Shown here: positions 45,764-55,056 of the stretch, in pieces | Position numbering within the stretch: the stretch's first letter is position 1 | Layout: each line of letters begins with the position of its first letter | Source of the DNA: Oscillospiraceae bacterium | Lineage (GTDB): Bacteria > Bacillota > Clostridia > Oscillospirales > Oscillospiraceae | Assembly: GCA_015068455.1 (NCBI GenBank) | Contig: SVKO01000001.1 | Location: forward strand, 1-64,000 | Direction of reading: 5' to 3' | DNA: 64,000 nucleotides | Position numbers and translations under genes: made by a program | Notes under the pieces: generated by a model | The model's input: only the letters and a program-made list of their open reading frames with translations | Database searches by the model: none | Told to the model about the DNA's origin: nothing

Positions 45764-45782
45764 GTCCTTTTTGCAAAACGAA

Positions 45783-45806
45783 GCGGCGGCGCATCCGCGC
45801 CGCCGC
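45783..45806 (-). terminator. Terminator of the RiPP-like operon
   Basis: The 10-bp stem GCGGCGGCGC (45783-45792) / GCGCCGCCGC (45797-45806) is followed on the minus strand by TTCGTTTTG, just after the nucleotidyltransferase stop. Confidence 0.8.
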
Positions 45807-45812
45807 CGAAAC

Positions 45813-47075
45813 TCAGCTTTTTATAATATTGTATTGCTCCAGCAGGCGGATGCGCTCGTTGCCCACCCGTATGCTGGTCAGTGCCGAATTGGACCTTCCC
45901 CGATGCCGAATCAATTCCCAGAGATAACCCAACTGCCGATGCAGCCAGGCCGCCGGCAGCAGCACGGGGATCTTTTTCAGACAGGGATATTTCCCCTGCA
46001 TGGACTCCAGCGGCGGGAACAGCGAATAGAGCACGGCGCTGGGGCCGTGGCCGCTCTGCGTGGACGCCGCCCGCAGGGTCATATTGCTGCTGTGCAGCCG
46101 ACTCATGGTGGCCGAGCCGTAGATGCCGCCCTCCATCACGTCCGCCAGCAGGGGCTCCGGATCGACGCCGGTCAGATCCCAGTCCGCCAGATACTTTGCC
46201 GCGCGGCTCTCCGGCAGCAGTTGCTCCCCTGCAATCCGGAATATCGCCCGGACGAAGTCCATGGCACCGATGTTCTCAAGCCGCGCGCGCAGGCTATCCC
46301 AGTTGATCTCCGTGCGGTATGCCTCGGCATACAGCCCGATATCGCAGATCTGACGGATGCCGAAGCCGCTGTAGAGGAAATGCTTCAGCGCGTGCAGCAG
46401 CAGATACAGAAGATGATCCTCCGGACCCAGGGTCAGGAATTCCGTGCCGCAGATCTGCTGCGTTACCGCCCGGTCATGGGCGCCCAGGAAACAGTCGTTC
46501 AGCCGGTCCAAATAAGGGGAATCGGGGGTAAACGGCGTTTTGTGCACCTCAATATACAGGCGTTTATCCTTATCCTGATAAGCCACTTCAAACTGCGTCG
46601 CCGCGTCCTTGCCCGGATCCGAGAGGACAAAGCCGTAGTTCAGCAGCGCCTAATGCAATTGCTGAAATTCCGCGGGCTTCACCAGCAGATCCTCGTCTGT
46701 GGAAGGACGGTGCTCCGGGTCGGGATAAAGCGCGCGGCACACGATCCCCTTCATCACCAGCGGATGCAGGCCCTTGGAGCGCAGATATCGATAAAGCAGG
46801 CAGAGCTCGCCTGTCCGGTTCGCCTGGCTGAGAATCTCAGCGCGGGCACGGTCGGCATACGCGGCCAGCAGCCGTTCAGCCGGCGGCGCAGTCCACTGTG
46901 CGATCCTTTCCGGAGGCAGCGCGTCAGCCGCCAGAGCGAGGATACTGTGGCTGCAGCACACATGGAAGAACGCCTTCCACTGCTCCGCATCCGGCTTTAC
47001 CGTCTCGTCGGCAACTGTCCCGCTCAGCACGTGCCGCAGCGTGCTGAGCACAAGCCTATAGATCTGTTTGAGCAT
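45813..47075 (-). pseudogene. NTP_transf_5-type nucleotidyltransferase gene with an in-frame TAG
   Basis: Reading from ATG 47075, 141 codons lead to TAG at 46650-46652; the same frame then continues without a gap (ALLNYGFVLSDPGKDAATQF...) to the stop at 45813, for about 420 residues in all. The first part carries VMKGIVCRALYPDPEHRPST and DEDLLV, the family's catalytic acidic motif; the second carries the C-domain (PEDHLLYLLLHALKHF). The stop falls in the middle of conserved sequence (QLH-stop-ALLNYGF) and fits a CAG-to-TAG change. TAG ends other genes here, so recoding is unlikely. The first fragment alone could still be expressed. Confidence 0.85.
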
Positions 47076-47093
47076 TCACGTCACGTCTTTAAA

Positions 47094-47375
47094 TCATCGG
47101 CTGAGATCATCGCCGCCAATCGTTTCACCCTCCGGAACAATCACCAGCGGCTCATCCTCTTCTTCCACCAGCATGGGCTGCGGCGCAGGTTTTTCTTCTT
47201 CCTGCTTTTCCTCCTCGCCGTCGGCCGGCGTCTCCCCTTCCACCGTCTCGGCAGAGGATTCTGCGCCTGTTTCTGAAACGTTTTCCGAATTCGTTCCGTT
47301 CTTATCATCCCGGCAGCCGGTAAAGCAAAGGACGATCATTGCGATCGCGAGCAGGCAAATAATAAACTTTTTCAT
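47094..47375 (-). CDS. Small acidic lipoprotein in the RiPP-like operon
   Basis: 93 residues. Signal peptide with lipobox (LCFTGC, Cys about residue 21), then a very acidic, low-complexity tail (Glu, Pro, Asp, Ser), ending near IVPEGETIGGDDLSR. Interestingly the tail ends in GGDD, and the precursor-like protein of the same operon contains GGGDLED. The role is unknown; a surface immunity or scaffold protein is possible. AGAGAG precedes ATG 47375. Confidence 0.7.
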   Translation of the reverse strand: MKKFIICLLAIAMIVLCFTGCRDDKNGTNSENVSETGAESSAETVEGETPADGEEEKQEEEKPAPQPMLVEEEDEPLVIVPEGETIGGDDLSR

Positions 47376-47396
47376 AGTGATCTCTCCATTCAGGGT

Positions 47397-47675
47397 TTAG
47401 TCAATCAGATAATTTTTTTCCAGAAGCTGATCCAGAAGCGACAAAAGATCCTGCCGAAGTTCCTCCGGATCCTCAATTTCATACTCTGCGGATACCTTTT
47501 CCATCAGCTCGTCGAGGTCGCTGCCCTGCTCCAGAATACGCCAGCAAAACGCCGCCGTATCATTGATCTGCGTCACGTGCGGACATATTTCGCGAAGCTG
47601 TTTCGCCGCGACCAGCACATACTGCCCCGCGACCGTGGTAAGAACCACACCCGGCCTGGTGTTATAACGCTTCAT
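47397..47675 (-). CDS. PqqD-family peptide chaperone (RRE protein)
   Basis: 92 residues. PqqD winged-helix fold: YNTRPGVVLTTVAGQYVLVA, INDTAAFCWRILEQGSDLDE, LMEKVSAEYEIEDPEELRQD. PqqD-like proteins hold the leader of RiPP precursors for tailoring enzymes. ATG 47675 follows GGGAG and lies inside the end of the HPr-kinase-like gene (14-bp overlap), so the two are coupled. The fold is clear; the client is presumed to be the 88-residue protein at the head of the operon. Confidence 0.9.
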   Translation of the reverse strand: MKRYNTRPGVVLTTVAGQYVLVAAKQLREICPHVTQINDTAAFCWRILEQGSDLDELMEKVSAEYEIEDPEELRQDLLSLLDQLLEKNYLID

Positions 47676-48426
47676 TTTCCGTACTCCCTTCGGATAAATA
47701 CGCACAGATCGTTTTCGCAGTCAGCAGCATCGACGCATCGTCGCCCCGGTTCTGCAGCAGCCATGTGGGATACTGTGACACCGTGCGCTCAACCAGCGCG
47801 GCAAGCCGGATGATCTGCTCTTTTGTCTCCGGTCTGCAGCCATACTGATGAAAAATGCGGTAAACAGACTGTTCCGGGCCGATCCGGGCAATGGTATTCT
47901 CCTGTGCCTGCTCCAGATAAATGACGCCGCCGAGCGGAGCTGCCGTTGTGCCCGCCCAACGCTCCTTTCCATTCCACGCAGACGGCCAGACGCGGATCGA
48001 GCCGTCCGGCTGCGCCGCCAGGACCGGCATATCCCCGCTGATTATCTGCACATCATCGCCGAAGCGGCGCTTCCAACGGATCATCTGCGTCGTTTTCCCG
48101 ACGCCGCTCGGCCCGGCCAAAAGCCAGGCAAAGCCCTGCCAGATGAAGGCGGCCGAATGGAAAATGCACGCATCAAAGCGCAGCAGATATACGGCCGTCA
48201 TTTCGATCAGATATTTGCTCTCACAATATGCCGCCGTATGCTCCGGGAAGCACTTTTGGATAAAGGCCATATCCCGGTCGCTCACGGCAATATCAAATTG
48301 GTCGCCCTCCGCCGGAAACATGTAATGCGAAAAAAAACGCAGCGTGTCCGGCTCTCGCAGTCGATACCGCAGAATATGACCCGCCACATTCATCTGGTAA
48401 ATCATATGTTTCATGTTTTTGATCAT
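47662..48426 (-). CDS. HPr kinase-like P-loop protein
   Basis: 254 residues. HprK-related: CIFHSAAFIWQGFAWLLAGP, Walker A GPSGVGKT (105-112) and SGDMPVLA (about 130). Such HprK-like enzymes sit in lasso-peptide and related RiPP clusters, where members such as PadeK phosphorylate a Ser of the precursor. The start is uncertain: the frame is open to 48468, no good ribosome binding site is seen, and ATG 48426 or 48414 are both possible. It follows the small peptide gene by 150 bp. Confidence 0.85.
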   Translation of the reverse strand: MIKNMKHMIYQMNVAGHILRYRLREPDTLRFFSHYMFPAEGDQFDIAVSDRDMAFIQKCFPEHTAAYCESKYLIEMTAVYLLRFDACIFHSAAFIWQGFAWLLAGPSGVGKTTQMIRWKRRFGDDVQIISGDMPVLAAQPDGSIRVWPSAWNGKERWAGTTAAPLGGVIYLEQAQENTIARIGPEQSVYRIFHQYGCRPETKEQIIRLAALVERTVSQYPTWLLQNRGDDASMLLTAKTICAYLSEGSTENEAL

Positions 48427-48576
48427 AGCATCAAAGAAAAGCGTGAAGATAACTCCTTCTCCACGCAATTCTTTTCAGGATTCATTTCAGGCATGCACAG
48501 GACGGAAGAATGCAGACTCCTCCTGCTGCGCACACCGGCCCTGCCTGCCGATTCCCTCTCTCTTTGCAGAAAGAGA
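48427..48576 (-). promoter_or_regulatory. Gap with hairpin between precursor-like gene and kinase
   Basis: A 7-bp hairpin TCTCTTT/AAAGAGA (48559-48576) begins right after the peptide gene's stop, followed by about 130 nt without a gene. A partial terminator here, letting more precursor than enzyme mRNA accumulate, is a common RiPP layout; no T-run is seen. Confidence 0.5.
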
Positions 48577-48843
48577 TTAAGGAATCAGAGTCTCAACGGG
48601 GCTGATGACCTCGGGCGTCTCAATGATCTCTTCCGCGGCAACGGTATCCTCCACAAGATCGATAACCGCGTCGGCCAGAAGATCATTGTTCGCTTCAACT
48701 ACGGGAGTTTCGACGTTGCTGAAAAGGATACTTCTGCTGTTATCCTCCAGGTCGCCGCCGCCGATTCCCGTGTTTCCGCCGATAATATCATCATCAGAAA
48801 TCCAGCCACTCAGAACAATCGGCTTAAAGTACTTTTTTCCCAT
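48577..48843 (-). CDS. Small Cys-free peptide, candidate RiPP precursor
   Basis: 88 residues. It opens MGKKYFKPIVLSGWISDDD: Tyr 5, Pro 8 and Gly 13 resemble the YxxP...G leader motif bound by PqqD/B1 proteins in lasso-peptide clusters. Then GGNTGIGGGDLED and an acidic, Val/Ile-rich tail ending ISPVETLIP. There is no Cys, so lanthipeptide-, thiopeptide- or sactipeptide-type crosslinks are excluded; Ser and Thr are available for phosphorylation. GAGAGG precedes ATG 48843. First gene of an operon with kinase, PqqD, lipoprotein and nucleotidyltransferase. Confidence 0.75.
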   Translation of the reverse strand: MGKKYFKPIVLSGWISDDDIIGGNTGIGGGDLEDNSRSILFSNVETPVVEANNDLLADAVIDLVEDTVAAEEIIETPEVISPVETLIP

Positions 48844-49005: not shown

Positions 49006-49033
49006 AGTATAACACACAATCACAAAAATGCAA
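49006..49033 (-). promoter_or_regulatory. Promoter of the RiPP-like operon
   Basis: -35 TTGCAT (49028-49033) and -10 TATACT (49006-49011) on the minus strand with a 16-bp spacer. The -35 lies in one arm of a small hairpin (ATGCAA/TTGCAT), so structure or a regulator could affect it. Confidence 0.65.
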
Positions 49034-49082
49034 GGCCATTGCATTTTTTTTGCATGTTTTTTCACAGTTTTTCAATCGAGGC

Positions 49083-49119
49083 GGATAATACGTGAGGGTC
49101 AAGCCCTCACGTATTATCC
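49083..49119. terminator. 16-bp perfect stem after the large surface protein gene
   Basis: GGATAATACGTGAGGG (49083-49098) and CCCTCACGTATTATCC (49104-49119) pair perfectly around 5 nt, 62 bp past the stop of the large surface gene. No T-run follows in either direction, so it may terminate poorly, protect the mRNA end, or bind a protein. Confidence 0.6.
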
Positions 49120-49180
49120 CCCTGACTTACAGTTTGGCGGCCGCGTCTGCGTATCCCTTTACGGGATACGCGTCGGCGCA

Positions 49181-52100
49181 TCACTGCTCGGAAGTTGTGA
49201 TATGCTGGTTCTCGTCGATCTCAACGAGTCTCGTCTTGGGGCCGACGACTTCGATGCCGTCGATCGTGGTCCAATACGGGGTGATCGTATAGCTCTGACC
49301 CGCGGAAACATCGAAATCAACATAATAGCTCACGAGGGCGAACAGATCCTTTGTGGTATCTCCGCCAAAGTTATTGCGGTTGACCGTCACGCTCTGCGTG
49401 TTGTAACCGTTCTGGATCTTGACGGAGGTCTTCTTGGCCTTGCCCGGCTTCGCTTCACCGTTGATCACAAAGCCTGCGCCGGAATAGTTCGGATCATCGA
49501 TCGTTGCAAGGGCGCAAAGCCAGGTCACCTTGTTGGTGTCAAGCTTATACGTGTAGCGGATGATGGATCTCAGGTACTTCTCCGACTTGGGAACTTCCTT
49601 GACGTAGTAGGTAGCCTTGGCTTCCGGGCTCTTCATGGCTCTGCCGCTTTCCGTCTGGGCTGCGGTGATATCCCAGTCCACACCTTCTTCCGTGGGCGGC
49701 GGAGACTCCTTGTAGTAGCCGCCATAGAGGCAATCCTCGCTGACGCCGGGCAGCTCATAGCCCTTCATGGTATTATCGGGATCGACAAGATTGTAGCCCG
49801 TGCCCGATTCGCCGCTCTTGGTTTCAATGATGGGGATCTGATAGATCGTGTAGCTGTCGGGATTCGCGTAGTAGTCGGAAGAGTAAACGACGTTGAAGTA
49901 CGGAGCCCAGACTGCATAGTAGGCCTGGTAGGGATCGGCCTCGTCAGCAGCGACTTCCGTCACTTCTGTCCAGGTACCGTCCTTCTTCTGCGCCTCATAA
50001 TGGCCTTCCGCTCCACCGGCTCTGGTTCCTCCCGCTGCCGTTCCGGCCTCGGGGATCCATTTGATGTACAGATCGTCGTAACCGACATCGTGATAGGCCG
50101 TCGGAGTGAGCGAGGTGTCATTGCCTTCATATTCCGACTCTCTGGCCCAGCCGAGGAAGATATAACCCTCCTCCGGGGGAGTAGGAAGTCCCTCTGTCAG
50201 CGTATAAATCTTCCGGGGCTCGTTGATCTGCAGGTCAACGTCCTTATGCAGGATGGCGGCTCCCTCAGGTTCGCCCTGCGCATCGACCGTTACAGTATCG
50301 CCCTCATAGTTGCGGTACCATCTGAAGTAGGTATCCTTCGGGGTCTCCTTCAGCGCAAACTCGGCGCGGAGCTGCAGCGTGTATTCCGCCTTGTCGATGA
50401 TGGTTTCATGAGTATTGGGATCCTCGTGGGTAGCGCTGATGACCGCCTTGGCATTCTCGAGGTCGATCGGGAAGCTGTCGCCGGGGTAGCAGATGACCGG
50501 CTCATTGTTCTCATCCAGAACGTCCACAAACTCGCCGCTCGCAGCATCGCCGACCCACTTCTGCAGGACCCAGTACACGAACTGATACTTATCCGAACCC
50601 TCTTTCGCCGGATCGACCTGGCAGCCCTCCTGGGCAACGGCCTTGGTATCGTCCTTGTAGTAGAGCGAATCCTCGGGCACGGAGCTTGCAAGGCCGTACT
50701 CGCCCGGGTCATAAATCACCTGGACGCCGGGAGCGCCTTCGGTGATCTTACGCCACTTGCCGTACAGATCCAGCTTGCGGGTGACCCATCCGCGGTCTGC
50801 GTCAGAGTTGGACGGGCCTTCTCCGGCCTCGTAATGGAAGTTCTCCGTCTTCTCATTGCTGATCCAGTAGTCCTCGCCTTCCTGAACGATCTCGCCGAAC
50901 TTATCCATGACGTCCGTCAGATCCGTTTCCTTGTTGTAAGCAGGCTCTGCGGGAACGGTGGAATCGTTCAGTTCGGTTCCCGCCATATAGCCGGAGCCGT
51001 CCTCATGGTACCAGCCGACGAATTCGTATCCCTTCCTCGTGCCAAAGGGAACGCTGACCTTGTCGCCCCAGGAGACGCGGAAGTTCATCTGCTGTTTGTC
51101 GTCAGCGCTGGCGGTTTCATCGCCCCAGCTCAGCGTCAGGTCTCTTTCTGTCGTCAGATTCCCGTTTGCGTCTTCCAGGAACGCTCTGGGGTGCAGGAAC
51201 ACACGGTACTGGATCTGCCGCCACTTGGCGTGGACCGTGATGCCGCCGACCGGCATGGTGGTCCAGGTATAAGGCGTGGTGCAGGCCTCGTCCAGATACC
51301 AGCCTTCGAACACATATCCTTCCTCACCGGCCGGAAGCGAGGGTACCCAATTCTGATAGGACTCGGCAATCATCGCACCCTGCTGGATTTTTTCTTCAAC
51401 CGTCTCCAGCGGATCCGATCCTCTGCTCTGAATGATGTTATTGCGGCCGTCAAAATAGGTGCCGTCGTAGTAGTTAATATTGTAGACCTTACGATCGTAA
51501 TAATACCGAACGTGATACAGGGTTGTACCGCCCTCTGTGGATGTCCATCTGGCATTATTGCCGTTGTTGCCGCCGGTTTCACCACTCTCGTTCGAGTTGC
51601 CGACCTGCACAAATCCGTCATACTGCGGCGGGTTCTGCTCTGCAACATTCTGGTTGCTCGATCTACTGGGGACGACGTCTTCCTGGTAATATTTTTTGCC
51701 GTTATAGGTAACGGGCGTTTTCCCGGTATAATCCACTCCGTCAAGCTGCTCATAGAAAATATGATAGCGCCAGTTGTTATAGCTCGTATCATAACGGCAA
51801 ATCAGGAAGTTACCGTCCGCATCCTCCGTCGCACCGAGAATCTTTTCATCCATACGGGTGATGAGGCCCTTGACGGTACCCTGACCGGACTGGCCGGTAG
51901 CGCCTTCCTTCAGCTGTGCGCCGTTCATCATAATGAAGCTGACCGGAGAGCGCGTCTGGTTGCCCTCTGTCACAGCAGTCAAGCTGCTGTAGGCAGGCCA
52001 TTTCGAACTGATGTCGTCGCCGTAATAAGCTTCCAGCGCAAAATAGTAGGCTGTACGAGTTCCTGCAGATACAGACTGAAGGGTAAGTCCGCTGCCATTA

Positions 52101-54916
52101 ACCACACCGGGATGGTCATTATCATCATAAAACGCATTCACGTTGCCGCGCGGATCCGTCCTGGAGCCTGGGCTCAGAGGATAGTGGGCATAGGAATAGC
52201 GGTTGCCAGCTCCGCCCGCATCCCAGTAGACGTAGAATCGAAGCTCATACTTGATGCGGTCGAAGTACAGGTTCAGGACCGAGTCGCCTTCGGCACGAAT
52301 CTTGGGAACTTCAATGCTTTCCAAAACCGGGTTCCCGTTGGCGTCATACGATTTCACCTTAAAGAGCTTGCCATCGTCATCATGGTTCAGACAGAAGCCC
52401 GTATAATGGCCGTTGTCCGTGCCGAAGCCGGTGACATAGTCCTCGTCGTCATTGTCAACGATTGTCAAGGGAATGTCCTGACCCACAGTGCCGGAGCCAA
52501 CATAGGAGCCGGCCACGTCATAGGCGCTTCTGTCCGAATTCTGCGTCCAGAAAACGACCGTATAAGGAGCCGTCGGATTGGCTTCCCACTTGGCGAAGAT
52601 GTTCGTCGTCTCAGTCAGAGGAGAACCAAACTCGAACTCTTTTCCATCGGTACATGCCTCATCGGTATACCAGCCCTTGAACTCATAGCCGTTGCGCTTC
52701 ATGACAGGAGGATCCGCGTCCGGATCCGCATTCGTGGCGGGGAACGTGTTTTCGCCCGGCAGGTAGAACTGAGGCGCGTTGAAGGTGGCGCCCTTGCCGT
52801 TGCCGTTGTAGACCAGCCAGAAGCCCTTGGGCGCCTTGGGGTAGAAGACTACTTCGCCCGTGATGGTGATCGTTTCCTTATAATCATAGACTTCCTTGAC
52901 CGGCGTCTTAATATTATCCTTCGTGGCAGGGATACTCAAACGGACAGGAGAGGTTTCATCTTCTTCATCTTCTCTCACGACCACTTCTTCGTCAGTGGGG
53001 AGCCAGCCAAAGAAGTTCTGGTCCTCCGTGGCAGCCGTGAAGTCCAAATTGATCTGATATTCCGCTTCCGTTTCGTTCGGCTTGATCAGGACGGTGTCCG
53101 AACCCAGGGAGACGTCCCAGGCGGGTTCGCCCTCGACAGTCGAGCCGAAGTAAGTGATGTTAAAGAATTTGAACACGCCGGCATAGACGTCGAGGACGTC
53201 GCCTTCTTTGATCTTGCCCTCGGTCTCCGGATCAAAGCCAGCGTGATCATTGCCGATGATGGTCTTCAGGATATACTCGCGGAGACCCTCGACGGTGAGA
53301 AGGGCGGTCTCGGTGGTATAATCCGCGCCCACAAGCTCCTCGGTATCCGTATAGTAAGCGTACGTCGGATTTCCATCTGCATCCAGGACCGGCTTCTTAT
53401 CCGCGCCCAGGACGGTTTTCTGGAGGTCGTCCAGGGACCAGCCCTTGAACACCAGCTCCGGGCCGATGGAGCCGGCGCCGGGATCGGTGACGATCTTCTC
53501 CAGATCCGCAGCGGTATCGGCGTTCTTTACATAATAGGTGGTGACCAGCTTCGGCACGTATTTGCCCGCATTCTCGCCTTCTGTGGCTTTCTCCAGACCC
53601 CAGAATCTGACTGCGACACGGGCGTCCTCGCCGCCTTCGCCGGGCTCGACCACGGCGTAAATGGAGAACTTCTCCGCCTTGAAGGCGACCTCGTCGTCCT
53701 TATCGGTCTCGACGGTCTCAACGGGCTCGGCCTTCTTGGTCACGTCGTCGATATGGACAACGGTGGCGTTCTCCGCCTTGTCCTTCAGCTCAGGCGCGCT
53801 GAAGCTGACCTTAACGGCCTTGCCCTCGGCGGGCTGCAGCTCCTGGCCGTCCTTGGAGAAGGTGATGTCCACGGCATAGAGAACCTTGCCGTTGACTTCC
53901 TCAGCGTCGTCCACGGCCTTCTGCACGTCGACCAGCTCGACCTTCTTTGCTTCCACGACAGTGCCCTCGGGGAAGGCGCCGTTCTCGGCATCGACGGAAA
54001 CGGTCAACTTTTCATCGACCTTCAGTTCTTTTCTGATGACGGGATAGGTCACCACCGTGAGCGTCGCAGCATCGGAGGTGAGCTTGGTGCCGTCGGCCAG
54101 GGTGACAACGCAGCGATAAGAATAGCCCTTGCGGCCGATGGTGGCCTTGACCTTCAGCGTATCCTTGTTGTAGCCCTGGGTGGCAGAGTTGAGGTTGTAC
54201 CACTTCGAGCCAACCGCGCTCTTATACTGCCACAGATAGCCCTTGACCGCGGCGCCGCTTACGGCGACGGAGAAGGACGCCATGGTGCTCACATCGGCGG
54301 TGACATCCTCGGGCTGGGCAGCGATCGCAGCCTGCTCCACGGTCAGTCTGGCGGCGTCGGAGACGGCGGTGTTGCCGTACTGGTCGGTGACGACGCAGCG
54401 GTACTGATATCCGTCGCGGGAGGCATTGACGGCGACCTTCAGCTCGGCGGTATTGTAGCCGGTGGTGGCAGAGGTGGCATTATACCAGCTCACGCCCTTT
54501 TTGGTCGCATACTGCCACTTGTAGCTCAGGCCGTCGCCGACGGCTTCGACCGTAAATACGGCCTTGGTGCCGTAGGCGGCAGTGACGTCCTCAGGCTGCA
54601 CCGTGATCTCCACGGGGGCAGGCTCGGGCTCCTCAGCGGGCTCCTCCTCGACGGGAGCGGGCTCTTCGACGGGGGCGGGCTCCTCAGCGGGAGCGGGCTC
54701 CTCGACGGGAGCGGGCTCTTCGACGGGGGCGGGCTCCTCAGCGGGAGCGGGCTCCTCGACGGGAGCGGGTTCTTCCTGGGTCACGGCCGGCGTGCTGGGC
54801 ACGGTTTCTTCCTCGTCTGCGCCTCCCGGGGCGGCAAACGCGGAAGCCGGCATGACGGTCAGCAGCATGGTCAGAACCAGCGCCAACGCGACCAGTTTTC
54901 TCAGTCTGGTTTTCAT
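49181..54916 (-). CDS. Large secreted surface protein with Ig-like and InlB-type repeats
   Basis: 1911 residues. Signal peptide 1-28 (ASAFA-AP), a Glu/Pro/Ala/Val repeat stretch (48-102), two Ig-like domains (about 107-290; YKWQYATKKGVSWYNATS, then YLWQYKSAVGSKWYNLNS), a region with LQPAEGKAVKVSFSAPELKD, and many InlB-type beta repeats (GYEFKGWYTDEACTDG, YTVVFWTQN, EGYVFEGWYLDEACTTPY). The C-terminus (TTSEQ) has no LPxTG, SLH or membrane anchor that I can see, so how it is held is unclear. AAGGAGGATCC precedes ATG 54916. Adhesin-like; ligand unknown. Confidence 0.9.
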   Translation of the reverse strand: MKTRLRKLVALALVLTMLLTVMPASAFAAPGGADEEETVPSTPAVTQEEPAPVEEPAPAEEPAPVEEPAPVEEPAPAEEPAPVEEPAPVEEEPAEEPEPAPVEITVQPEDVTAAYGTKAVFTVEAVGDGLSYKWQYATKKGVSWYNATSATTGYNTAELKVAVNASRDGYQYRCVVTDQYGNTAVSDAARLTVEQAAIAAQPEDVTADVSTMASFSVAVSGAAVKGYLWQYKSAVGSKWYNLNSATQGYNKDTLKVKATIGRKGYSYRCVVTLADGTKLTSDAATLTVVTYPVIRKELKVDEKLTVSVDAENGAFPEGTVVEAKKVELVDVQKAVDDAEEVNGKVLYAVDITFSKDGQELQPAEGKAVKVSFSAPELKDKAENATVVHIDDVTKKAEPVETVETDKDDEVAFKAEKFSIYAVVEPGEGGEDARVAVRFWGLEKATEGENAGKYVPKLVTTYYVKNADTAADLEKIVTDPGAGSIGPELVFKGWSLDDLQKTVLGADKKPVLDADGNPTYAYYTDTEELVGADYTTETALLTVEGLREYILKTIIGNDHAGFDPETEGKIKEGDVLDVYAGVFKFFNITYFGSTVEGEPAWDVSLGSDTVLIKPNETEAEYQINLDFTAATEDQNFFGWLPTDEEVVVREDEEDETSPVRLSIPATKDNIKTPVKEVYDYKETITITGEVVFYPKAPKGFWLVYNGNGKGATFNAPQFYLPGENTFPATNADPDADPPVMKRNGYEFKGWYTDEACTDGKEFEFGSPLTETTNIFAKWEANPTAPYTVVFWTQNSDRSAYDVAGSYVGSGTVGQDIPLTIVDNDDEDYVTGFGTDNGHYTGFCLNHDDDGKLFKVKSYDANGNPVLESIEVPKIRAEGDSVLNLYFDRIKYELRFYVYWDAGGAGNRYSYAHYPLSPGSRTDPRGNVNAFYDDNDHPGVVNGSGLTLQSVSAGTRTAYYFALEAYYGDDISSKWPAYSSLTAVTEGNQTRSPVSFIMMNGAQLKEGATGQSGQGTVKGLITRMDEKILGATEDADGNFLICRYDTSYNNWRYHIFYEQLDGVDYTGKTPVTYNGKKYYQEDVVPSRSSNQNVAEQNPPQYDGFVQVGNSNESGETGGNNGNNARWTSTEGGTTLYHVRYYYDRKVYNINYYDGTYFDGRNNIIQSRGSDPLETVEEKIQQGAMIAESYQNWVPSLPAGEEGYVFEGWYLDEACTTPYTWTTMPVGGITVHAKWRQIQYRVFLHPRAFLEDANGNLTTERDLTLSWGDETASADDKQQMNFRVSWGDKVSVPFGTRKGYEFVGWYHEDGSGYMAGTELNDSTVPAEPAYNKETDLTDVMDKFGEIVQEGEDYWISNEKTENFHYEAGEGPSNSDADRGWVTRKLDLYGKWRKITEGAPGVQVIYDPGEYGLASSVPEDSLYYKDDTKAVAQEGCQVDPAKEGSDKYQFVYWVLQKWVGDAASGEFVDVLDENNEPVICYPGDSFPIDLENAKAVISATHEDPNTHETIIDKAEYTLQLRAEFALKETPKDTYFRWYRNYEGDTVTVDAQGEPEGAAILHKDVDLQINEPRKIYTLTEGLPTPPEEGYIFLGWARESEYEGNDTSLTPTAYHDVGYDDLYIKWIPEAGTAAGGTRAGGAEGHYEAQKKDGTWTEVTEVAADEADPYQAYYAVWAPYFNVVYSSDYYANPDSYTIYQIPIIETKSGESGTGYNLVDPDNTMKGYELPGVSEDCLYGGYYKESPPPTEEGVDWDITAAQTESGRAMKSPEAKATYYVKEVPKSEKYLRSIIRYTYKLDTNKVTWLCALATIDDPNYSGAGFVINGEAKPGKAKKTSVKIQNGYNTQSVTVNRNNFGGDTTKDLFALVSYYVDFDVSAGQSYTITPYWTTIDGIEVVGPKTRLVEIDENQHITTSEQ
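54611..54775 (-). repeat. Short tandem coding repeat (Glu-Glu-Pro-Ala-Pro)
   Basis: About ten 18-bp units code for EEPAP(V/A) after the signal peptide. Runs of near-identical GCTCCTCGACGGGAGCGG-like units suggest slippage or recombination could vary the stalk length. This is a coding repeat, not a CRISPR. Confidence 0.85.
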
Positions 54917-55000
54917 GTACGGATCCTCCTTCTTCCTTATATACGCTCGAGTAAACCGGCGTTTTCACGCCTGAAAGTTCACAGAAGTATAGATACTAAC

Positions 55001-55056
55001 ACTATACCATAAAACCGCAAAAAATCAAGTCAAAATTGTTGGTTTACTATAGTAAA
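55001..55056 (-). promoter_or_regulatory. Promoter of the large surface protein gene, with upstream palindrome
   Basis: -35 TTGATT (55023-55028) and -10 TATAGT (55001-55006) on the minus strand, 16-bp spacer. A 14-bp perfect palindrome, TTTACTATAGTAAA (55043-55056), lies 15 bp upstream of the -35 and could bind an activator or repressor. Confidence 0.65.

Follow-up and report, generated by a model that had tools for sequence, protein, structure and literature searches.

In the LPP system of polyphosphorylated linear peptides, published in May 2026, the lpp locus of P. alginolyticus comprises the leader peptidase SpI, a discrete RRE (recognition element of ribosomally synthesized and posttranslationally modified peptides [RiPPs]), an HprK-like kinase, an NTP transferase, and an MsbA-like exporter. 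According to the main text of that paper, Ser3 of the core, located 18 residues beyond leader Tyr-16, is polyphosphorylated by LppK, and LppN showed no activity in the host that was used. The authors could not identify the final product and state that the biological role is unknown (PMC13381572). In the paeninodin and pseudomycoidin lasso peptide clusters, as described in the accessible sections of two papers, an HprK-type kinase phosphorylates the precursor at its C-terminal Ser, and the nucleotidyltransferase homologue PsmN is linked to a hexose on the phosphate (PMC9266682, PMC7533575). Here, we describe a locus in a 64,000-nucleotide stretch (the window) of contig C7 of a 2.3-Mb Oscillospiraceae genome (G000). 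Its minus strand encodes, in this order, a giant protein, an 88-amino-acid (88-aa) small protein, a kinase, a PqqD-type RRE, a lipoprotein, and an NTP_transf_5 protein, followed by a terminator-like hairpin. We lean, with little more than even confidence, toward an LPP-like system that makes a phosphorylated, ring-free small protein, which would work together with the giant, predicted-secreted surface protein. The original prediction for this locus, made from the sequence, had named the five parts of a single minus-strand unit from the small protein onward, all of which were found in place. It had missed the main neighbor, the 1,911-aa protein encoded upstream, which ends in a domain that accompanies this type of kinase.

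Results

Relatives were collected by scanning 84,980 species genomes once with an alignment of four kinases; of 300 confirmed stretches, the best 80 supplied the 76 loci analyzed. Nearly all are metagenome-assembled genomes (MAGs) titled Clostridia or Erysipelotrichia, many of them from gut and rumen, and three have Bacteroidales-type titles. Under titles of Oscillospiraceae, Lachnospiraceae, Erysipelotrichaceae, and Christensenella, MAGs show the same gene order again: the giant protein is followed by the small protein, the kinase, PqqD, a membrane protein or lipoprotein with a tail, and NTP_transf_5, with the tail gene placed after NTP_transf_5 in some loci. The lack of conservation that had been considered for the arrangement was, as far as gene order is concerned, not encountered. 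A genus-level search yielded one positive genome out of two, the window's own. It should be noted that the loci include near-copies (L116/L117 and L073/L074), that L079, L098, L117, L127, and L131 share lengths or sequences with the contigs of L033, L034, L035, L036, and L040, and that the Fisher tests reported below ignore relatedness.

The kinases fall into two clades with different neighbors. In a tree of 85 kinases, built by a quick method with SH-aLRT as the only measure of support, 26 rows, 24 of which have SpI on the locus, were separated from 59 rows without SpI, the window among them, at an SH-aLRT value of 99. Counted on the same strand within 6 kb, in loci with at least 4.5 kb of downstream sequence and with a profile built from six LPP-side loci, SpI was absent from all 48 loci of the window's clade, the window's own among them, and present in 18 of 20 LPP-clade loci (Fisher P = 1.5e-14). 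The locus is therefore not a standard LPP system. Of the assessable loci, 34 of 46 in the window's clade and 3 of 22 in the LPP clade encode a large protein that ends no more than 1 kb ahead of the kinase (Fisher P = 3.9e-6); to be counted, its N terminus had to show a crude signal pattern or be cut by the contig end (as in L087, L114, and, on the LPP side, L039); in L049, also on the LPP side, the large protein lies just beyond the 1-kb limit. PqqD was common to both clades (57 of 59 and 22 of 24 loci). NTP_transf_5 within 6 kb was more frequent in the window's clade (38 of 48 loci) than in the LPP clade (5 of 20), and an ABC exporter within 4.5 kb was less frequent (16 of 48 versus 13 of 20). 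In L039 and L049, the large protein precedes peptides of 35 to 37 aa with YxxP- or YxxL-like starts.

The giant protein of the window (49181 to 54916, minus strand) is 1,911 aa long, has a signal-like N terminus, and carries Ig-like and List_Bact/InlB B-repeat regions (Pfam Flg_new, E = 6.4e-19; I-set, E = 3.7e-6). The large proteins of the different loci vary in body, with List_Bact repeats in the window, L073, L110, and L123 and VWA plus Cna_B in L117. Common to these otherwise differing proteins is a C-terminal domain of about 150 residues (49190 to 49630, minus strand, in the window; alignment A6), which has no shared Pfam family and no convincing PDB match by sequence. It lies 1.5 kb or less upstream of the kinase in 53 of the 76 loci, 24 of these 53 having been used in its profile. 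The remaining 23 comprise 7 SpI loci, 3 loci that carry the domain at another place on the locus, 8 with less than 2.5 kb of upstream sequence, and 5 clear exceptions (L109, L118, L119, L125, and L132). None of the SpI loci with a large protein upstream (L039, L047, L049, and L061) has the domain.

Linkage was also seen genome by genome. Among 200 genomes of the family, the domain occurs in five (G000, G004, G173, G194, and G123), exactly the five with a kinase match below 1e-30. The chance of hitting the same five is 4e-10 when relatedness is ignored, and the kinase E-value gap that defines the five (2.0e-33 versus 2.5e-24) was chosen after the results had been seen. Across 391 genomes of the class, the domain was detected in G000, G824, and, weakly, G850 and G800; all four have a kinase match, which 100 of the 391 have overall, and the domain is on the kinase's contig in G000 and G824 only. 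Four of the genomes mentioned (G004, G194, G123, and G824) were outside the domain profile. This gene order and co-occurrence suggest a partnership between the giant protein and the small-protein operon. An LPxTG-like signal near the C terminus was recognized in 1 of 60 domain proteins (L090), so other means of surface attachment would be needed.

Two further observations concern the giant proteins. In G824 (L192, 2906 to 11499), a protein with three matches to the C-terminal domain adjoins a 40-aa FxxP peptide, PqqD, and the kinase; the same locus has a 755-aa protein with an SpI-like start that, judged by its length, may run into an ABC exporter. Opposite the giant gene of the window, a frame of 1,994 aa is open on the plus strand (49028 to 55012), probably as a by-product of the giant gene's codon makeup.

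The candidate precursor is the 88-aa protein encoded at 48577 to 48843 (minus strand). As predicted, it has no Cys and carries a YxxP leader motif (Y5-F-K-P8, residues 5 to 8), followed by a Gly-rich GGNTG segment and an acidic C-terminal half ending in Pro. T25 is located 20 residues past the motif Tyr. A search of 5.8 billion proteins at E values up to 1 returned five matches (clusters), 94 to 97% identical. Small ORFs (open reading frames) from the window and from 53 relatives were assigned by eye, with the leader motif as one of the criteria, to the sets A2 (35 members, window included) and A3 (19 members). The motif [YFW]xxP is present within the first 16 residues in 34 of 35 A2 and 8 of 19 A3 members (shuffle means, 3.8 and 1.6); since the motif itself contributed to the sorting, the A2 figure alone is circular, and the pooled value of 42 of 54 (about 5 expected) is fairer. 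The two sets do not cover 23 of the 76 loci, which either showed no small ORF or had theirs set aside by eye, as in L095, L127, and the SpI loci L136 and L146.

The aligned small proteins are very diverse, with a mean column identity of 21%. When homologous operons are compared, what is conserved is the position of the small gene, its leader motif, and the hairpin that follows it, not the sequence. The absence of Cys, to which the original prediction had given weight, is not a trait of the system, because 21 of 35 A2 and 6 of 19 A3 members contain this residue. The W/D-rich C-terminal half of alignment A5, common in relatives, is missing from the window protein; acidic-tailed small proteins were also noted by eye in L102, L112, and L120. 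In L123, L128, L129, L130, L133, and other A3 loci, the small protein at this place next to the same kinase type lacks a clear leader; in L123, L128, and L130, it ends in an SxQGxG-type stretch. The motif [ST]xQ[GST] is present in 12 of 35 A2 members (shuffle mean, 2.6; largest, 9) and was not used further.

An EF-hand or dockerin reading of the second half of the small protein was considered. A Ca-loop-like pattern matched 18 of 35 A2 members (shuffle mean, 3.0). Pfam Dockerin_1 matched just 2 of the 35 (best E = 0.03), NCBIfam dockerin_GC also 2 (best E = 0.0038), and the second half had no PDB sequence match at E = 0.1 and no fold match (model mean pLDDT, 73). The searches fail to establish an EF-hand.

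Between the small gene and the kinase gene of the window, there is a terminator-like hairpin (48434 to 48473, minus strand; core, 48466 to 48441, then TTTTCTTT). A hairpin in this position was found in 36 of 50 assessable loci, compared with 2.9 expected from dinucleotide shuffles, with a mean folding z of -4.1; 4 of 54 gaps (L110, L115, L135, and L143) had been dropped from the count. The stem GCGTGG...CCACGC recurs in 15 of 50 loci (0.01 expected) and a looser form of it, which the window has, in 18 of 50 (0.04 expected). Because a terminator-like hairpin follows the small gene, the small protein is presumably produced in larger amounts than the enzymes.

The PqqD-type RRE is encoded at 47397 to 47675 (minus strand; PF05402, E = 3.9e-14), and the best PDB match of its profile is LppB (9x8z, E = 6.4e-7). 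Its gene overlaps the kinase gene (47675-47397 versus 48426-47662) by the 14 bp that had been predicted; the overlap is exactly 14 bp in 16 of 56 loci and at least 1 bp in 43 of 56. The main text of the LPP paper describes how, in crystallized LppB, D70 forms a hydrogen bond with the leader Tyr and N33 holds the kink at the Pro in place (PMC13381572). Among the 30 of 35 A2 members taken into the comparison, the residue aligned to N33 is Asn in 29. The residue aligned to D70 is Asp in 9 of 14 systems with a Tyr leader (window included), in 0 of 14 with a Phe leader, and in 0 of 2 with a Trp leader (Fisher P = 1.4e-4). The leader residue changes three times on the tree, which leaves two independent pairs (three including unsupported branches), so this correlation is supportive and does not amount to a test.

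Two observations extend to other PqqD-like genes. In loci titled with Erysipelotrichaceae-type genera such as Solobacterium and Faecalitalea (L087, L093, L106, L108, and L126), two tandem PqqD matches follow the kinase. The window's genome has a second PqqD-like gene (10613 to 10882 of L072, which is G000 C7:153000-172900), near which no kinase of this family was seen. The gene upstream of it is presumably a nicotinate phosphoribosyltransferase gene.

The kinase gene spans 47662 to 48426 (minus strand; start codon provisional). The prediction of an HPr-kinase-like ATPase is borne out by the predicted fold and not by family assignment, as the protein reaches the cutoff of no Pfam family. An AlphaFold2 model built from 66 sequences (pLDDT, 95.0; pTM, 0.91) was compared with the PDB by Foldseek. 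All 50 rows among the matches listed are PEPCK or HPr kinase, PEPCK being the best (E = 3.3e-7) and HprK/P of L. casei reaching E = 4.9e-6 (1kkl). Since the query-normalized TM-scores are modest (0.39 to 0.55 for PEPCK and 0.28 to 0.38 for HPr kinase), the protein shares the fold with these enzymes and not close kinship. It has the P-loop GPSGVGKT, and H90, K111 (P-loop), and D132 are invariant in the columns of the 66 sequences. In the accessible part of a review, lasso-tailoring kinases are assigned the catalytic residues His-Lys-Asp-Asp; the second Asp of this set was not located in the window kinase.

Downstream of PqqD, an acidic lipoprotein is encoded at 47094 to 47375 (minus strand), with a lipobox-like LCFTGC recognized by eye and the C-terminal tail ...VIVPEGETIGG.... 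The motif [IV]x[IV]P is present in 17 of 27 hand-picked lipoprotein tails (shuffle mean, 0.87). A motif common to the small protein and the tail (IxIPxGQGSGG versus GxGTGQGG) is not claimed, as it hardly exceeds what composition gives (mean z, 0.5); in the same test, cognate pairs scored higher than mispaired ones (P = 0.015, n = 27).

The NTP_transf_5 gene (47075-45813) had been taken for one gene. The family assignment held, and the gene proved to be split by one in-frame TAG into two pieces of the same frame, at 46650 to 47075 (minus strand; PF14907, E = 1.3e-16, profile positions 2 to 108), ending at the TAG, and at 45813 to 46586 (minus strand; PF14907, E = 9.9e-23, profile positions 130 to 246). 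The second piece has a 98% identical counterpart in an uninterrupted 420-aa protein from a cluster of 13 member sequences, which shows that the stop has not become fixed in the lineage; eight members make up the cluster to which the 257-aa piece belongs. The operon ends in a terminator-like hairpin of 11 pairs, 10 of them G-C (45782 to 45807, minus strand), the strongest stem of the region, in which eight terminator-like sites were found versus 4.1 expected. An Rfam search of the region gave no match, and a promoter scan gave three sites versus 2.3 expected. A perfect inverted repeat of 14 bp (ATAATACGTGAGGG), with 5 bases in its loop, is located at 49085 to 49117, in the gap of about 340 bp between the giant gene and the small gene; by eye, this gap is mostly short in relatives.

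The absence of lasso peptide genes from the neighborhood, which had been part of the prediction, was confirmed over a wider range. No match to B2 (PF13471) was obtained in the 2.3-Mb genome at E = 0.001, and the nearest Asn_synthase-like match, a weak one, is 39 kb away (C7:6656-6763, E = 1.2e-4). Among 30 kinase-bearing genomes, six have a B2 match, which exceeds the cutoff in two and lies on contigs other than those of the kinases.

Discussion

The findings can be joined in the following scheme. The 88-aa protein would be made in excess, and the PqqD-type RRE would bind its YxxP leader and present it to the kinase. The kinase would then place one or more phosphates on a Ser or Thr just after the leader, for which T25 in the Gly-rich segment may be the best candidate. 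Relatives whose NTP_transf_5 gene is uninterrupted may use the enzyme to add a nucleotidyl or sugar group to the phosphate, a step probably lost in this strain. At the cell surface, the product would encounter the giant protein's C-terminal domain, and the lipoprotein tail may serve as a tether. By analogy with the described families, a RiPP-type, ring-free pathway with phosphorylation as the likely modification is supported. The original prediction had offered phosphorylation or nucleotidylation: the former is likely by family precedent, the latter is doubtful in this strain because of the stop in the NTP_transf_5 gene, and nucleotidylation or glycosylation is possible in relatives.

Several points weigh against this scheme. 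The NTP_transf_5 gene is interrupted in the window, the TM-scores of the kinase model are modest, and the leader changes on the tree are few. No universally conserved phosphoacceptor was found among the 35 A2 small proteins; the pattern [GN][ST][GDAQ] after the leader occurs in 22 of 35 (shuffle mean, 11.4; largest, 21). In A3, 11 of 19 small ORFs have no leader motif, yet the same kinase type stands alongside. The domain matches in G123, G850, and G800 are weak (E = 2.5e-8 to 7.9e-6) and off the kinase's contig. Cleavage and export are unexplained, because there is no SpI nearby in the 48 clade loci (no search was made for unlinked copies) and the 6 kb downstream of the window's operon contain no exporter.

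A more specific form of the scheme, which we put forward only tentatively, is a new surface display system. In it, a peptide tailored by RRE, kinase, and nucleotidyltransferase would stay uncleaved, and its phosphate-based group would hold or switch the giant adhesin through the C-terminal domain without a sortase. The near-absence of LPxTG-like signals makes the locus a candidate for sortase-independent adhesin presentation in gut and rumen Firmicutes. If true, this would be the first biological role for LPP-like chemistry.

The strongest competitor, which we regard as rather improbable, holds that the locus is an ordinary LPP-type system served by a leader peptidase and an exporter located elsewhere in the genome, and that the giant protein is a co-controlled neighbor and no partner. 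The core enzymes are indeed identical in kind to those of LPP, an ABC exporter follows in a third of the clade's loci (16 of 48), and the G824 domain protein adjoins a locus with an SpI-like protein. Set against this are the lack of SpI in a clade split off with high support, the retention of the C-terminal domain while the body of the giant protein changes (List_Bact in L073, VWA and Cna_B in L117), and the co-occurrence of domain and kinase type genome by genome. With lower probability still, the small protein could serve the giant protein as an accessory subunit or chaperone without being modified, and the RRE, kinase, and NTP_transf_5 would have another target. The leaderless A3 members and the Ca-loop-like pattern fit such a role; the leader motif in 42 of 54 small ORFs next to an RRE gene, the hairpin, which is expected for a precursor made in excess, and the failure of Pfam, PDB, and fold searches to establish an EF-hand speak against it.

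That the locus is decaying in this strain, for which the in-frame TAG and the missing W/D-rich half of the small protein could be cited, appears quite unlikely: the other four frames are open, the kinase model is of high confidence, acidic-tailed small proteins occur in three other loci, and near-identical forms of the small protein make up five clusters in the protein collection. A degraded lasso peptide cluster that has lost its cyclase and B2 is very improbable, since the likeness to paeninodin-type clusters in PqqD, kinase, and NTP transferase is outweighed by the scarcity of B2 in kinase-bearing genomes, the lack of a cyclase-like match within 39 kb, and the same small gene set in relatives.

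An LPP-like system partnered with a giant surface protein would tie kinase-only, ring-free RiPP-type enzymes to one class of giant surface proteins by gene order and genome-level co-occurrence. The open question about the purpose of polyphosphorylated linear peptides thereby becomes a two-protein experiment. The words surface, adhesin, and Clostridia were not found in the main text of the LPP paper (PMC13381572), nor were HPr kinase and nucleotidyltransferase in the accessible main text of the RRE-Finder paper (PMC7470986). None of the literature titles, by which papers within reach (subscription papers and preprints excluded) were mostly judged, describes a variant linked to a giant protein.

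Comparison with known systems

The HPr-rel-A system (NCBIfam TIGR04353) has a PqqD-type chaperone and is HPr related by name; the PqqD protein of the window scores 20.4 bits, below the cutoff of 35. With the paeninodin and pseudomycoidin clusters, the locus shares an HprK-type kinase, a discrete RRE, and a nucleotidyltransferase homologue. It differs in that lasso peptides need a cyclase and B2 and have a C-terminal Ser, whereas both genes are missing at this locus and its small protein ends in Pro.

The likeness to LPP comprises a discrete, LppB-like RRE, a kinase that is HprK-like by predicted fold, an NTP transferase (split in the window by the in-frame TAG), a small YxxP precursor with a variable C terminus, and no macrolactam cyclase. 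The precursor motif YxxPxVLxHQxIxFETxxS is represented in the window by YxxP, without the HQxIxFETxxS continuation, and SpI and an MsbA-like exporter are likewise absent from the locus. The window's kinase belongs to a separate clade, without nearby SpI and with an ABC exporter in a minority of loci. The claim that the operon was undescribed therefore holds only in part, because the ring-free chemistry of RRE, HprK-like kinase, and NTP transferase is already published as LPP (PMC13381572). The presumed core chemistry is known; the locus is set apart by the missing SpI and the likely link to the giant protein, as the window's system adds to the LPP-like core a tail-bearing lipoprotein and a giant protein with a linked C-terminal domain.

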